Positions 20,752 through 27,247 of a DNA stretch of 64,000 nucleotides are shown here, one piece after another. Position 1 is the stretch's first letter; the number at the start of each line of letters is the position of its first letter. This stretch comes from Methylobacterium variabile (GTDB taxonomy: Bacteria > Pseudomonadota > Alphaproteobacteria > Rhizobiales > Beijerinckiaceae), in the NCBI RefSeq assembly GCF_001043975.1, contig NZ_LABY01000053.1, forward strand, positions 1-64,000, given 5' to 3'. The translations under genes were made by a program, and so were the position numbers. The notes beneath the pieces were generated by a model. The model did no database searches and had not been told where the DNA came from. It saw only the letters and a program-made list of their open reading frames with translations.

Positions 20752-21651
20752 TCAGGCGACACCGTGCTGGCGGAACCACGCCAGCATCCGCGCCCAGCCA
20801 TCCTCCGCCGGGCCCTTGCGGTAGCTCGGGCGGTAATCGGCGTGAAAGCCGTGCGGCGCGTCCGGGAAGATCACGATGTCGACGGTCTTGCCGGCGGCCT
20901 TCGCCGCGTCGCGCGCCTTCTCGACGTCGGCGACCGGGATCCCGGCGTCAGATGCGCCGTAGAGGCCGAGGATCGGGGCGCGGATGTCCGGGATCACGTC
21001 GGCAGCGGTCTTCGGCTGGATGCCGGTGCGGTTGCCGCCGAAATTGCCGTACCAGGCCACGCCCGCCTTCAGGCTGGCGCTGTGGGCGGCGTAGAGCCAC
21101 ACGGTGCGGCCGCCGCGGCACCAGCCGGTGATGCCGAGCTTGCCCGGATCGCCCTTGGCCTCCGCGGCCGCCCAGGCGGCGGAGGCGTCGAGGTCGCCCA
21201 TCACCTGCGCGTCCGGCGTCTTCGACACGACCTCGCGGACGATCTCCTGCACGTCGGTCATCTTCGAGACGTCGCCCTGGCGGGCGAACAGCTCGGGCGC
21301 CACCGCGGTGTAGCCGGCCTTGGCGAGCCGCCGGCAGATGTCCTTGATGTATTCGTGGACTCCGAAGATCTCCTCGACCACGAGGACGATCGGGAACGGC
21401 CCGGGCCCTTCCGGCATCGCCCGGTAGGCCGGCATCGGCCCGTCGCCGACCGGGATCCGCACCTCGCCGGCGACGATGCCGGCCTCGTCGGTGCGGATCG
21501 CTTGCGCCTCGACCCGGGTGGTGGCCAGCGTCAGGCCGCTCATCAGGCCCGTCATCACGAAGCCGCGCCGGGAGAAGGGCGGGATCACCAAGCCGTCGAG
21601 CTGCTCGAGGTCCGTTGCCGCGCCCGCCCGTGCCTCGTCGCTGTTCGCCAT
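20752..21651 (-). CDS. Dienelactone hydrolase family protein, possibly Tat-exported
   Basis: A 299-residue alpha/beta hydrolase of the dienelactone hydrolase family. The nucleophile Cys is in GITGWCRGGRTVW, the Asp in LYGASDAGIP and the His in DAPHGFHADYR. The N-terminus has PPFSRRGFVMTGLMSGLTLATTRVEA, a twin-Arg-like signal. The RR pair is followed by GFVMTG, so Tat export is plausible. About 50 residues precede the enzyme domain. No chlorocatechol genes are nearby, and the natural substrate is unknown. Confidence 0.85.
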   Translation of the reverse strand: MANSDEARAGAATDLEQLDGLVIPPFSRRGFVMTGLMSGLTLATTRVEAQAIRTDEAGIVAGEVRIPVGDGPMPAYRAMPEGPGPFPIVLVVEEIFGVHEYIKDICRRLAKAGYTAVAPELFARQGDVSKMTDVQEIVREVVSKTPDAQVMGDLDASAAWAAAEAKGDPGKLGITGWCRGGRTVWLYAAHSASLKAGVAWYGNFGGNRTGIQPKTAADVIPDIRAPILGLYGASDAGIPVADVEKARDAAKAAGKTVDIVIFPDAPHGFHADYRPSYRKGPAEDGWARMLAWFRQHGVA

Positions 21652-23807: not shown

Positions 23808-24821
23808 TCAGGTCCCCCGCCGCGCCACCGCCGCCTCGACGAGCGAGCGGATCGCCGCCCGCACCGGTTCCGGCGTGTCGTCGCGCGTGAACTTCGCCTC
23901 GATCTCCTCGCGGATCAGGGCGCCATCGTCGCTGCGGGCGAGGTCCGTCGCGGTCTCGGCCCGCAGCAGGGACACGAAGGCGCTCTCGACTCGGCCGGCG
24001 GCCTCCGGCGAGGCGTCGGCGGCGATGTCTACGGCGACCTGACGGCCGGTGAGGTCGAACACGTCAGCCGCGAAGGGCAGGCGCTCCTCGCTCAAGGAGA
24101 GGTCGCCGGCGAGCACGAAGGCGGCGGGGACGTGGGCGATCAGGTCGACGGAGGCCCGGGTGATGTTGCCCGGGTTGAACCACAGCGTCGCGCCGACCCG
24201 CACCGGCGCGTGGCGCTTGTGGACGTGGCCGTTGATGGCGAGGTCGCAGCCGAGGATCGCGTCGGGCGGCACCGCGCCGGGATAGCCGGCCCCGAAGGCG
24301 AGGTCGTGGTGGGTGAGCCAGACGACCTTGTCCGCCGCGGGAAAGAGCCCGCGCGCATCCGCCGGGATCGCCTGGCCGAACGGCGTGGCACCCAGGCCGA
24401 GGTGGCGCCCGTCGACCCGGTAATGCGCCGCCGGGCCGGATTCGGGAACCACGTCGAGGACGTCGCTCACCGCCAGCATCGCCAGGCTGTCGCCGTCCGA
24501 CAGGCGGGTGTGGCGGATGTCGTGGTTGCCGACATTGGCGAGCGGCCGGTGGCGAAACCCCTTGAGGATCCGGATGAGGCGCGACTTCAGGCTCTCGTCC
24601 GGCTCCACCGGCCGCTCGAACAGGTCGCCGAGGAGCAGGGGCGCGAGGTCCCGGGCATTGGCCAGCGCGACGCAGTGATCGAGCTTGGCCAGCACCGGCG
24701 CCGGCCAGTCGGGATCCTTGCGCCGGCCGGGCCGGCGCGACGAGACGTGCGGGTCGCCGATCACCAGGAGGCCGGCGCACTCAACCGGCGCGGCGTCGAG
24801 CCGCTCGTGTCCGAGGATCAC
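23808..24821 (-). CDS. SbcD/Mre11-like metallophosphoesterase
   Basis: A 337-residue calcineurin-like phosphoesterase with the full metal-site set: GDPH near the start, LLGDLF, NVGNHDIRH, WLTHHDLAFG and INGHVHKRH. Partnered with the ATPase encoded just upstream it should act as an Mre11/SbcD-type nuclease on DNA ends. A 110-residue C-terminal part after the catalytic domain (ATDLARSDDGALIREEIEAKF) has no motif I know. The start is GTG 24821, overlapping the ATPase stop (GTGA), so the two are translationally coupled. It belongs to the SOS-boxed unit starting at 27131. Confidence 0.85.
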   Translation of the reverse strand: MILGHERLDAAPVECAGLLVIGDPHVSSRRPGRRKDPDWPAPVLAKLDHCVALANARDLAPLLLGDLFERPVEPDESLKSRLIRILKGFRHRPLANVGNHDIRHTRLSDGDSLAMLAVSDVLDVVPESGPAAHYRVDGRHLGLGATPFGQAIPADARGLFPAADKVVWLTHHDLAFGAGYPGAVPPDAILGCDLAINGHVHKRHAPVRVGATLWFNPGNITRASVDLIAHVPAAFVLAGDLSLSEERLPFAADVFDLTGRQVAVDIAADASPEAAGRVESAFVSLLRAETATDLARSDDGALIREEIEAKFTRDDTPEPVRAAIRSLVEAAVARRGT

Positions 24822-26794
24822 GCCGCTTCCTCCGGCCGGGTGCCGTGGCGATGCCCGGCGAGCAGAGCGGCCGGGGCCGTGGGCGTGCCGCAGGCCGGGC
24901 AGCGCCCGCCGGTCGCGGCCAGCACCTCCGCCATCGCGGCCTCCGTCGCGGCGAGGCCGTCTCGAGCCGCGTCCGCCCGGGCCCGGGCCTCGGCGAGGCG
25001 GCGGCCGATCTCGGCGAGGCGCCGGGCCGTCGCCGCGGCGTCCGGCCGGAGCACCGGCTGCGGTGCCGCGTCGGGCAGGGTCTCGAGGAGTGCCGCCCGG
25101 CCCTCGGCATCGGCGAGGTCGCGCGTCAGGCGGCGCAGCCGGGCGGCGTGGGCGGTGGCCGCCCGCGAGTCCCGCGGCACCGGCGCCTCCCGCGGCAGCT
25201 CCGCGAGGGCGGCGAGCCGCGCCTGCGCGGCGGCAAGGTCGCGGGCGCCGCCGAGGACCCGGCGCCCCACCGCCTCGCGGTGGCGCGCCTCCGCGAGCGC
25301 GCGCCCGAGTTCTGCGCCGATCTCGGGGCCGGGCAGCGCCGCCAGCGCGCTGGCGCGGGCCGCGGCGCCGGCGGCGAGGCGGGCGGCGCGGGCGAGGCGG
25401 TCGCGCAGCGCCTCGCGGTCGCGCAGGCGCGCCGCCTCCGCATCGAGGCTGACCGCCTGCGCCCGGAGGTCCTGCAGCGCCTCCGCGAGGGCGTCGAGCC
25501 CGTCGAGGTGACCGAGCCTCTCCCGCAGGCGGGTGATCTCGCGCTCGCCCTCGCGGACCGTGCGCTGGTCCTCGGTGACGCGCTCGCGCTGGAGCGCCTG
25601 CATGTCGCGGATCAGCCCGGCCTCGCGGCCGATCGACAGCACCGCCGAGCGCCGGGCCGGCTTCTCGCCGAGCAGGAAGACCGGAAATTTCTGGTGCGCC
25701 ACGTGGACGTCGAGTTCCTCGACCCGGGTGATGCCGAACAGGCGCTCGACCCAAGAGGGCACGTCGCGGCCGCCGGTCTCGAGGGTCGCGCCGTTCTCCT
25801 GCACCAGCGAGCCGTCCGCCTCGTGCAGCGACCACAGGTTGACCGGGGTGCGCCTGGGCTGGCGGACGTAGCGCAGGATGCGCCCGCCGGCGACGCCGAT
25901 CTCGACCCGCGCCGCGCTTGCGCCCGCCCGCACCAGGCTGTCGCGCACCTCGCCGTAGAACACTGCGCGCAGGGCCCGGATCACCGTCGACTTGCCGTGG
26001 TTGTTCGGCCCGACCAGGGCGTTGACCCCGGGACTGAGCGGCAGCGTCGCGTCGGAAAAGCCCTGGACGTCGACGAGGCGCACGAAGCGGAAGCCCGGCA
26101 TCTCCGGCGACCACGCCGCCGCGCAGGAAGCCGCCGACCCGTCGATGGCGACCCCGGTTTCCGGCCGCCCGGCGATGCGGCTGACCGTCAGGCCGGCGTC
26201 GAACCCCGCGACGTCGTGGTGCGAGATCGCCAGGCACTGCACGCCGAGCCGGGCGGCGCCGTCGTCGAGCACCCGGTAGAAGGCCGGCACCCGGTCCGGC
26301 GCGATCCAGCAATCCGCCTCGTCGAGGGCGAGGAAGCGGCCGACGCCGGCCTTGACCACCGCGATCAGGCGCAGGGCCATGCCGACCACGTTGGTCATCG
26401 CGCCGCCGTTGTCCTCCAGCACGTCCTCGCGGCCGCCGTCCGGGCGCTCGACCGCGATGTCGAGGGCCGGCAGGCCGCGCTCCGTGGTGAGGTCGAGGCG
26501 CACCGGCTTCTCGCCGGGCAGGACCTCGCGGACGAGGGCGGTGAGCAGCGTCTCGAAGGTCGCGACGCTGCGCCGGTTGGCGTCCTGCTGCAGCTCGCGC
26601 AGGTAGGTGTCGACGGCGTCGCGCTGGGCGAGCCGGCCCTTGGCGGCCGCGACCGCCCGGGTCCGGGCCGCGAGGTCGGCCCGGTCGCGGTCGCGGGCCG
26701 CCTCGAGGCGGGCGAGCATGCGGGCGGCGCGCGCGAGGTCGTCGTGAGAGACGCCGCCCTGAGGCAGGCCGTCCTGGGTGTCGGTCGGGGTCAC
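24818..26794 (-). CDS. SbcC/Rad50-like ATPase with circularly permuted domain order
   Basis: A 658-residue SMC/Rad50-type ATPase in unusual order. Residues 20-80 are a coiled coil. The C-lobe comes next, with Walker B FLALDEAD (154-161) and the H-loop ISHH (190-193). Only after this is the Walker A loop VGPNNHGKST (261-270) with the Q-loop HQKF (367-370). A long coiled coil (395-625) ends in CPAC (632-635), half of a zinc hook, 23 residues from the C-terminus. Canonical Rad50 has Walker A first and Walker B last, so this chain looks cut at the hook and fused at the head. GTG start 26794, 16 bp after the upstream gene. Confidence 0.82.
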   Translation of the reverse strand: MTPTDTQDGLPQGGVSHDDLARAARMLARLEAARDRDRADLAARTRAVAAAKGRLAQRDAVDTYLRELQQDANRRSVATFETLLTALVREVLPGEKPVRLDLTTERGLPALDIAVERPDGGREDVLEDNGGAMTNVVGMALRLIAVVKAGVGRFLALDEADCWIAPDRVPAFYRVLDDGAARLGVQCLAISHHDVAGFDAGLTVSRIAGRPETGVAIDGSAASCAAAWSPEMPGFRFVRLVDVQGFSDATLPLSPGVNALVGPNNHGKSTVIRALRAVFYGEVRDSLVRAGASAARVEIGVAGGRILRYVRQPRRTPVNLWSLHEADGSLVQENGATLETGGRDVPSWVERLFGITRVEELDVHVAHQKFPVFLLGEKPARRSAVLSIGREAGLIRDMQALQRERVTEDQRTVREGEREITRLRERLGHLDGLDALAEALQDLRAQAVSLDAEAARLRDREALRDRLARAARLAAGAAARASALAALPGPEIGAELGRALAEARHREAVGRRVLGGARDLAAAQARLAALAELPREAPVPRDSRAATAHAARLRRLTRDLADAEGRAALLETLPDAAPQPVLRPDAAATARRLAEIGRRLAEARARADAARDGLAATEAAMAEVLAATGGRCPACGTPTAPAALLAGHRHGTRPEEAA

Positions 26795-26810: not shown

Positions 26811-27131
26811 TCAGCGGGCCGTGTCGAGGGCGGCGAGGCGGTCCTGCACCGCCCGCAGGGCCTGCGCGAAAGCCTCGACCCGGCGGGCGTTCTCGGCCCG
26901 GGCCTCCTCGATCATGCGCCGGATCTCGGCCTCGTCGTCGGTGCCGAGCTCCTCCCTGGCCTGGGCCCGGGCCGCCGCCAGCTCGGCGGTCAGCCGCTCG
27001 ACGTCGCTCTCGGCCCGGATGCGGTCGGCCCGCAGGCGCTCGTAGGCCGGCTGCAGCGCCTCGAGGCGGCGCAGCGCCTCGACGTCCGGGCTCGCGTCCC
27101 GCGGCTCCTGCCCCTTGCGGCTGCGCTCCAT
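26811..27131 (-). CDS. Small charged coiled-coil protein of the SbcCD-like operon
   Basis: A 106-residue highly charged helical protein with a continuous coiled-coil pattern from DVEALRRLEALQ to AVQDRLAALD and no other domain. ATG 27131 is preferred because GACGAGGAGCGAG puts AGGAG 6 nt upstream; an earlier ATG at 27149 gives 112 aa with no such site. It is the first gene of the unit transcribed from the region holding the LexA box 27248-27262, and the ATPase gene follows after 16 bp. It could be an accessory to the SbcCD-like complex. No known family recognised. Confidence 0.65.
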   Translation of the reverse strand: MERSRKGQEPRDASPDVEALRRLEALQPAYERLRADRIRAESDVERLTAELAAARAQAREELGTDDEAEIRRMIEEARAENARRVEAFAQALRAVQDRLAALDTAR

Positions 27132-27247
27132 CTCGCTCCTCGTCGTCATCGGCCTGAGGTGGCATCCGGCCCGCGCTTTGGCAACGGCGCCGGCGTTCGA
27201 GAAATGTTCGTCCGGCCCTGTTGACGGCCTGTGCAAATCAGCCCAGT

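Follow-up and report, generated by a model that had tools for sequence, protein, structure and literature searches.

Background

Rad50 is usually portrayed as one unbroken chain that extends to a zinc hook and then returns, and in the canonical SbcC/Rad50 order Walker A is followed by coil, hook, a second coil and Walker B. Mre11/Rad50 fusion proteins, Mimivirus R555 among them, carry the nuclease fused to Rad50 (PMC3175470, in its passages on these fusions), and LmuB of Lamassu systems, a putative Rad50 relative of ~650 amino acids (aa) that often has a CPxCG hook, is encoded beside the small LmuC (PMC10586767, in its passages on these components). A permuted or hook-split Rad50 was not found described in the literature searched, by word matching only and within a limited library. 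Here we describe a permuted Rad50-type ATPase, encoded between two partner genes in a 64,000-nucleotide stretch of Methylobacterium variabile (contig NZ_LABY01000053.1 of assembly GCF_001043975.1, positions 1 to 64,000), hereafter the window. We take it to be the ATPase of a divergent Mre11-Rad50-type complex, a Rad50 chain that was cut after the zinc hook and whose head lobes were re-fused in reverse, and we give this full account a probability of about 0.72. What can be read from the sequences themselves is the permuted order and the fact that it is conserved, the operon, and the clade formed with split phage Rad50 genes; the permuted Rad50 would be a new variant of Mre11-Rad50, with a function that we infer.

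A Rad50-type ATPase with reversed lobes

The ATPase is encoded by a single frame, present in one copy in its own genome, and its chain departs from the canonical order, running from Walker B through the H-loop, Walker A, the Q-loop and a long coil to the motif CPAC. An earlier interpretation made from the letters of the window alone (the sequence-only reading) had placed Walker B and the H-loop before Walker A in one 658-aa frame, with CPAC near the C-terminus and a short coiled coil at the N-terminus. Translation of the frame bears out these coordinates, lengths and motif positions and puts the gene on the minus strand; CPAC lies 23 residues from the chain end, and the coiled coil reappears as helix 17-56 of an AlphaFold2 model. 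The features of the ATPase, in window coordinates, are the following.

24818..26794, minus strand: permuted Rad50-type ATPase, 658 aa, GTG start at the 26794 end (frame and conserved motifs)
26627..26746, minus strand: N-terminal helix, residues 17-56, putative short remnant of the Rad50 return coil (AlphaFold2; aligns with the N-terminal coil of the phage C-half)
26141..26614, minus strand: C-lobe of the Rad50 head, residues 61-218 (hhalign to the phage C-half, E 1.6e-14; Foldseek 3qkr_B, 1f2t_B)
26390..26413, minus strand: divergent ABC signature DNGGAMTN, residues 128-135 (G131 and N135 invariant in 44 rows)
26312..26335, minus strand: Walker B FLALDEAD, residues 154-161 (D158 and E159 in 57/57)
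26216..26224, minus strand: H-loop SHH, residues 191-193 (H192 in 57/57)
26090..26140, minus strand: linker from C-lobe to N-lobe, residues 219-235 (variable between the lobes in the alignment)
25670..26089, minus strand: N-lobe of the Rad50 head, residues 236-375 (Pfam AAA_23, E 4.8e-9; profile to 5f3w, E 1.9e-10)
25985..26011, minus strand: Walker A GPNNHGKST, residues 262-270 (G262, G267 and K268 in 57/57)
25691..25693, minus strand: Q-loop glutamine Q368 (57/57)
24914..25627, minus strand: outgoing coil, residues 390-627, its length differing among relatives (AlphaFold2 helices; alignment)
24890..24901, minus strand: zinc-hook motif CPAC, residues 632-635 (C632 and C635 in 57/57)
24845..24853, minus strand: HRH, residues 648-650, an HxH after the hook (HxH in the tail of 50/57)

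The sequence-only reading had called for a search for homologues with the same motif order, and the fused permuted order is conserved in every one of 57 distinct full-length sequences, the window included. These were drawn from 68 entries (L001-L067 and the window), from which L001, L003, L005, L007, L015, L027, L049 and L058 were set aside as the window's own copy, duplicates, broken or cut-off frames or a non-member, and L013, L014 and L018 were removed as identical across the last 300 residues; 44 of the 57 make up alignment A1. Residues D158, E159, Q186, H192, G262, G267, K268, Q368, C632 and C635 are identical and in the same order throughout, as is G131 of the signature. Five control SbcC proteins of the same genus and order have hook, SGGE and Walker B in the ordinary order, and in four of the five the motif scan also placed Walker A first. 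The claim of the sequence-only reading that Rad50/SbcC always has Walker A first thus stands for these controls as far as they were scanned, but the permuted clade breaks the rule, and the ordinary order of the controls together with the conservation in 57/57 makes the permuted order more than chance.

The ratio of nonsynonymous to synonymous substitution rates (Ka/Ks), taken against five relatives, is 0.22-0.28 for the whole protein and 0.05-0.12 for the Walker B lobe; the coil has higher values (0.30-0.50), and those of the 17-residue linker vary erratically (0.08-0.89). These values bear on one alternative explanation of the permuted frame, an assembly error or frameshift that fused two genes. 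The two halves are indeed separate genes in phages (see below), yet the fused frame recurs in all 57 distinct sequences, from many assemblies that include complete replicons, and Ka/Ks is low in both lobes; such an artefact is ruled out, and the frameshift or assembly split that the sequence-only reading had named as fatal to its interpretation falls with it.

Comparison with known structures, by profile and by Foldseek, places both lobes with the Rad50-type ABC head, the C-lobe weakly. The profile of A1 matches the Rad50 N-lobe 5f3w (E 1.9e-10) and, at its C-terminal end, the Rad50 hook structures 6zff (E 3.2e-5) and, weakly, 1l8d (E 0.004); its N-terminal part matches the Rad50 C-lobe chain 3qkr_B weakly (E 0.005), and SMC, RecN and RecF chains likewise match its N-lobe. 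The AlphaFold2 model has two lobes, a confident N-terminal helix, a mean predicted local distance difference test (pLDDT) score of 77.3, and coil helices at 390-429, 433-485, 490-531, 543-571 and 585-627. Its top four Foldseek matches are all Rad50 (9a9j, 3qkr_B, 1f2t_B and 1f2u_C, E 2.3e-4 to 2.2e-3, with 3qkr_B at 1.5e-3 and 1f2t_B at 1.7e-3), and SMC chains rank below them. VIA-align picked up mainly the N-lobe, for which chains of SMC, Rad50, RecF and OLD were tied, and the Pfam matches of the window ATPase (AAA_23 and other ATPase models) are confined to the region around Walker A. The window locus is not among the matches of the NCBIfam SbcC model TIGR00618, and Rad50 models match far below their cut-offs. 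Where relatives are annotated, they carry the names AAA family ATPase, hypothetical protein or DNA repair ATPase-like protein.

Distribution of the permuted gene

The permuted gene occurs in Methylobacterium and Microvirga and also on megaplasmids of Bosea, Variovorax, Pseudomonas and Vibrio. A translated plasmid search returned 21 records with single pieces spanning approximately residues 52-448, from Bosea, Methylorubrum, Rhizobium, Acidiphilium, Variovorax, Pseudomonas, Vibrio, Aeromonas and Alteromonas. The genome collection held 51 loci, some of them cut by contig ends, of which 50 are members (Methylobacterium, Microvirga and a few other Alphaproteobacteria) and one, L058, was rejected as a non-member. 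At least one locus is chromosomal, that of the Microvirga sp. VF16 chromosome. In the single-contig genome G024, of the same genus as the window (loci L005 and L007), the ATPase frame is broken in the coil, around residue 515-530.

In a sample of the phylum, 12 genomes were matched; ten of the matches were discarded because they covered the N-lobe only, with no match to the C-half, and are proteins that we take to be RecN. The two remaining carriers, among 398 genomes, are the genome of the window and a second genome of the same genus, and the same two were recovered in a second sample (2/397); because both samples scored only three candidates per genome, the rarity of the gene is a rough statement. 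Scans of viral contigs, for which the window protein, A1 and two gammaproteobacterial members served as queries, found no permuted relative, and a phage origin of the permuted version is thus unsupported. L128, a match from these scans, is an ordinary-order Rad50-like protein.

Split Rad50 genes in phages and megaplasmids of Bacillota

Rows of A1 match two phage protein families, phrog_16465 (the N-half, named 'exonuclease'; 44/44 rows) and phrog_15167 (the C-half, named 'ATPase'; 42/44). Bacillus phage vB_BboS-125 encodes the two separately, as a 471-aa N-half that stops soon after a CPLC motif and a 211-aa C-half, together with a 78-aa coiled-coil-like protein. Homology to the permuted ATPase extends over nearly the full length of both phage halves, with the N-half, hook included, aligning to residues 231-640 (E 4e-33) and the C-half to residues 16-209 (E 1.6e-14) in profile comparison. 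When viral contigs were scanned with the C-half, 27 loci were found, many of which differ little from one another, and L089 (from the same phage as L090) brings them to 28; in all 28, N-half, small open reading frame and C-half follow in that order on one strand, and every N-half has a CxxC inside its last 45 residues. In each of the 21 phage records tested, out of the 28 loci, a phosphoesterase gene lies on the strand of the C-half gene and starts between 3 bases ahead of the end of that gene and 1488 bases past it; the gap is positive in 18 of the 21, and the other three genes abut or overlap.

Related arrangements occur on megaplasmids. In Alkaliphilus the order is phosphoesterase, N-half, small gene, C-half, and in Paenibacillus and Aneurinibacillus a fusion of phosphoesterase and N-half is followed by the small gene and then the C-half. 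On the 603-kb plasmid of Jeotgalibacillus malaysiensis (L086, L138) a similar fusion of phosphoesterase and hook-ending N-half, with a small coiled-coil gene adjacent, is found ~75 kb from the C-half. Gene 2 of Microbacterium phage Magritte (L085) encodes a stand-alone Rad50 C-half; the six genes of this phage that were translated include no N-half.

A tree of both lobes, built from 16 of the 57 permuted sequences, 10 phage loci, four of the five SbcC controls and three YhaN-type proteins and rooted with the last, unites permuted and phage sequences with support of 100 and separates each group from the other (96 for the permuted sequences alone, 99 for the phage sequences alone). One fusion event is the simplest reading of this tree, which does not tell which state came first. 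The sequence-only reading had regarded homologues with two separate proteins as a refutation; such homologues do exist in phages and plasmids of Bacillota, but as a sister arrangement, beside which the fused frame is conserved.

The operon

Partner genes that the sequence-only reading did not mention flank the ATPase gene, a small helical-hairpin gene upstream and an Mre11-like phosphoesterase gene downstream, as follows.

26811..27131, minus strand: small helical-hairpin protein, 106 aa, ATG at 27131, stop at 26811 (GAGGAG just upstream; an in-frame ATG at 27149 is possible)
23808..24821, minus strand: Mre11/SbcD-like metallophosphoesterase, 337 aa, GTG start, 4-nt overlap with the ATPase stop (Pfam PF00149, E 1.8e-4)

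The small protein is modelled by AlphaFold2 with a pLDDT of 90.5 as helices 15-62 and 67-105 joined by a GTDD turn, which is invariant in 21 rows and variable in more distant ones; VIA-align, with only one chain compared, found nothing for it. An open reading frame of the same family lies upstream of the ATPase in 64/64 loci scanned, out of the 68 entries, a count that includes duplicates and cut-off ATPases and in which 30 loci are in the profile by construction. The PF00149 match of the phosphoesterase is just over the Pfam cut-off, and its motifs (GDPH, GD, GNHD, THHD and GHVH) support the assignment to the Mre11/SbcD type; they are kept with small variations in ten alpha/beta rows of the alignment. 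The protein has no match to the SbcD model TIGR00619, nor, by sequence, to solved structures at E 0.01.

Alpha-, beta- and gammaproteobacteria all have the operon, in which a third gene accompanies those of the small hairpin and the ATPase. Neighbouring genes on megaplasmids encode LigD (Bosea), RecJ (Variovorax), RecQ (Aeromonas and Alteromonas) and UvrD-type or other helicases (Pseudomonas and Vibrio), which favour a role in repair or recombination; the Acidiphilium stretch has no repair or recombination neighbour of these kinds. On the plasmids of Pseudomonas, Vibrio, Aeromonas and Alteromonas (L062-L066) the partner motifs are lost or unrecognizable, with ATPase and hook kept, and judging from the sequences a switch of this third gene from nuclease to structural subunit is possible. 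Elsewhere in the window, and unconnected with the ATPase, a dienelactone hydrolase family gene lies at 20752-21651 on the minus strand (Pfam PF01738, E 1.3e-55).

The patchy distribution and the many megaplasmid copies would also suit a plasmid- or phage-interference ATPase of Lamassu type, LmuB-like and with a small middle component, rather than a repair complex. LmuB resembles the window ATPase in size, hook and small partner (PMC10586767, in its account of LmuB), and PADLOC matches the window ATPase to GajA (E 1.6e-8) and LmuB (E 4.1e-7), and the phage N-half is matched best by LmuB (E 1.4e-14). However, the PADLOC matches of the window ATPase fall inside the N-lobe (residues 236-360), and neither the phosphoesterase nor the small protein matches a PADLOC model, so that an LmuA partner is not recognized among them. 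The Walker B glutamate E159 is present in 57/57 where the C-terminal Walker B of LmuB generally has glutamine (PMC10586767, in the same account), and the partner, with its motifs kept in the ten alpha/beta rows, is an Mre11-like phosphoesterase. A Lamassu-type system is therefore an unlikely identity for this operon.

Hook, tail and coil

The sequence-only reading had proposed a protein cut at the hook tip and joined head to head, in which each chain would give one coil strand up and one down. Its first part is supported, in that the protein is of Rad50/SbcC type, seems to have been cut directly behind the hook and joined head to head, and keeps the fusion among its relatives, but the full coil geometry is not: in the AlphaFold2 model the outgoing coil comprises ~240 residues (390-627) and the return helix only 40 (17-56), which means that the distal return strand is missing and that the one-up, one-down arrangement is not borne out.

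Such a chain could still use its hook as Rad50 does, with two chains sharing one zinc through CPxC, the permutation being a rewiring and end tethering remaining ordinary. Both cysteines of the motif, CPAC in the window, are found near the chain end in 57/57, and the hook region of the profile matches the Rad50 hooks 6zff and 1l8d. What speaks against a shared zinc is that the chain lacks the return coil found after the hook in Rad50, and that 55/57 sequences have at least two further Cys/His residues after the CxxC. An HxH lies in the post-CPAC tail of 50/57 sequences, the window included, compared with 26 of 6217 windows of 25 residues elsewhere in the permuted proteins. With HxH in the tail and four possible ligands per chain, a self-contained zinc site is possible, and the hook may be a complete one-chain site rather than a hook half. 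The tails of the phage N-halves are less uniform (HxH in 7/14 and at least two Cys/His in 10/14, counted in 14 of the 28 loci). We regard the shared-zinc hook as a serious alternative, if somewhat short of an even chance.

Relation to SbcCD

In the genome of the window the SbcD model finds no match, and SbcC is matched only twice, weakly and over short stretches. Among 37 genomes of the genus, an SbcD-like match is absent from precisely the six that carry the permuted ATPase (G000, G012, G015, G020, G024 with its broken frame, and G036). All 31 remaining genomes show such a match, which passes the curated cut-off in 13 and is only partial in 18. Worked by hand, the chance of this exact exclusion is 1 in 2,324,784 if genomes are independent, which they are not. 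The 50 genomes reached through permuted loci likewise have no SbcD match over the cut-off (0/50), and 15 have a weaker match. Two of the 18 genomes with a partial match (G010 and G033), both without the permuted gene, and one further genome of the order encode a large ATPase in which Walker A comes first and no CPxC was seen; we presume it to be YhaN-type. Genomes of the genus (L125, L126 and L127, as against L120-L124) seem to use SbcCD, a pair that we likewise presume to be YhaN-type, or the permuted system.

A proposed complex

In the account that we favour, a Rad50 chain would have been cut just after the zinc hook and its lobes then fused with the C-lobe first and the N-lobe second. Both lobes of one chain would fold into one Rad50-like head, ATP would bring two heads into engagement, and each head would bear a zinc site at the free tip of its one long coil. 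The phosphoesterase would be the nuclease of the complex, and the small hairpin protein a third subunit that packs on the outgoing coil and replaces the missing return strand. Such a complex might process or tether DNA ends, and stand in for SbcCD in genomes that lack it.

Several observations weigh against this account. The predicted template modelling score of the ATPase model is only 0.54, and the signature is DNGGAMTN in place of the canonical SGGE/Q (SGGE in the five SbcC controls). Position, size and a G-T-[DT]-[DP]-like turn are common to the small proteins of Proteobacteria and those of phages, but in sequence the two are no more alike than coil controls are, with a profile score of 19.7 where unrelated coil windows, used beside reversed and shifted controls, reach up to 22.6; the Alkaliphilus small protein matches the two small-protein profiles at E 2.9e-4 and 1e-10, and coil profiles match it too (E 0.0025 and 0.0079). 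The third genes of Pseudomonas, Vibrio and Alteromonas have lost the phosphoesterase motifs in the alignment, that of Aeromonas was not recovered by the phosphoesterase profile, and the four gammaproteobacterial third-gene proteins scanned have no Pfam match; since no phosphoesterase motifs are recognizable there, the system would not always be a nuclease. Of the 50 genomes reached through permuted loci, nine show an SbcD-like match that is partial but reaches E <= 2.1e-9. Outside the genus, nine of 24 genomes of the order have no SbcD match and none of the 24 has the permuted gene; absence of SbcD alone therefore does not call for the permuted gene, and the mutual exclusion may rest on few lineages.

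A further alternative is a decaying or accessory gene that has no current role and whose exclusion of SbcCD is accidental and clade-borne, as might be suggested by the frame broken in the coil in one single-contig genome of the genus and by gammaproteobacterial third genes that look inactive as phosphoesterases. The Ka/Ks values, above all those of the Walker B lobe, and catalytic residues identical across three classes argue against decay, which we consider very improbable.

Joining these elements, we tentatively suggest, as a proposal that may well prove wrong, an open-armed Rad50 with a single long coil that ends freely in a CCHH zinc knuckle complete in itself, in which the return strand is supplied by the small hairpin protein as an exchangeable part. 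It would have arisen once, at a cut in the hook, to persist as split genes in phages and megaplasmids of Bacillota and as a head-to-head fusion in Proteobacteria, where it would replace SbcCD. Were this so, tethering would be regulated by binding and release of the third subunit rather than by a covalent hairpin with shared zinc. A conserved family that is cut at the hook and swapped in its lobes would directly test whether ATP-driven nuclease control and end tethering depend on the return strand and on a shared zinc. The family also gives structural studies a compact, naturally split or permuted Mre11-Rad50, and it connects modules of phages, megaplasmids and chromosomes.

Comparison with known systems

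Among described systems, YhaN/YhaO-type pairs share with the permuted system a coiled ATPase beside a phosphoesterase, but the YhaN-type ATPase is ~1160 aa long, with Walker A first and no CPxC found. Lamassu LmuB and LmuC share a putative Rad50 relationship, similar size, a frequent hook and a small partner, but have an LmuA effector in place of the Mre11-like phosphoesterase and a C-terminal Walker B that usually carries glutamine (PMC10586767, as its passages on these proteins describe them). The Mre11/Rad50 fusions are rearranged in architecture, as is the window ATPase, with no lobe permutation described in the passages that present them (PMC3175470). SbcCD and Mre11-Rad50 have in common with the permuted system a two-lobed ABC head, a long coil, a CPxC zinc motif and a calcineurin-type phosphoesterase partner; the permuted system differs in its reversed lobes, in a hook near the chain end, in a nearly absent return coil, in DNGGAMTN for SGGE and in its extra small hairpin gene. 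The nearest relative found is the sister clade, the split Rad50 of Bacillota, in which, as in the window, the N-half ends at the hook, the return coil is short, and a small coiled-coil gene and a phosphoesterase gene adjoin; there N-half, small protein and C-half are separate genes, whereas in the window the two halves form a single frame.

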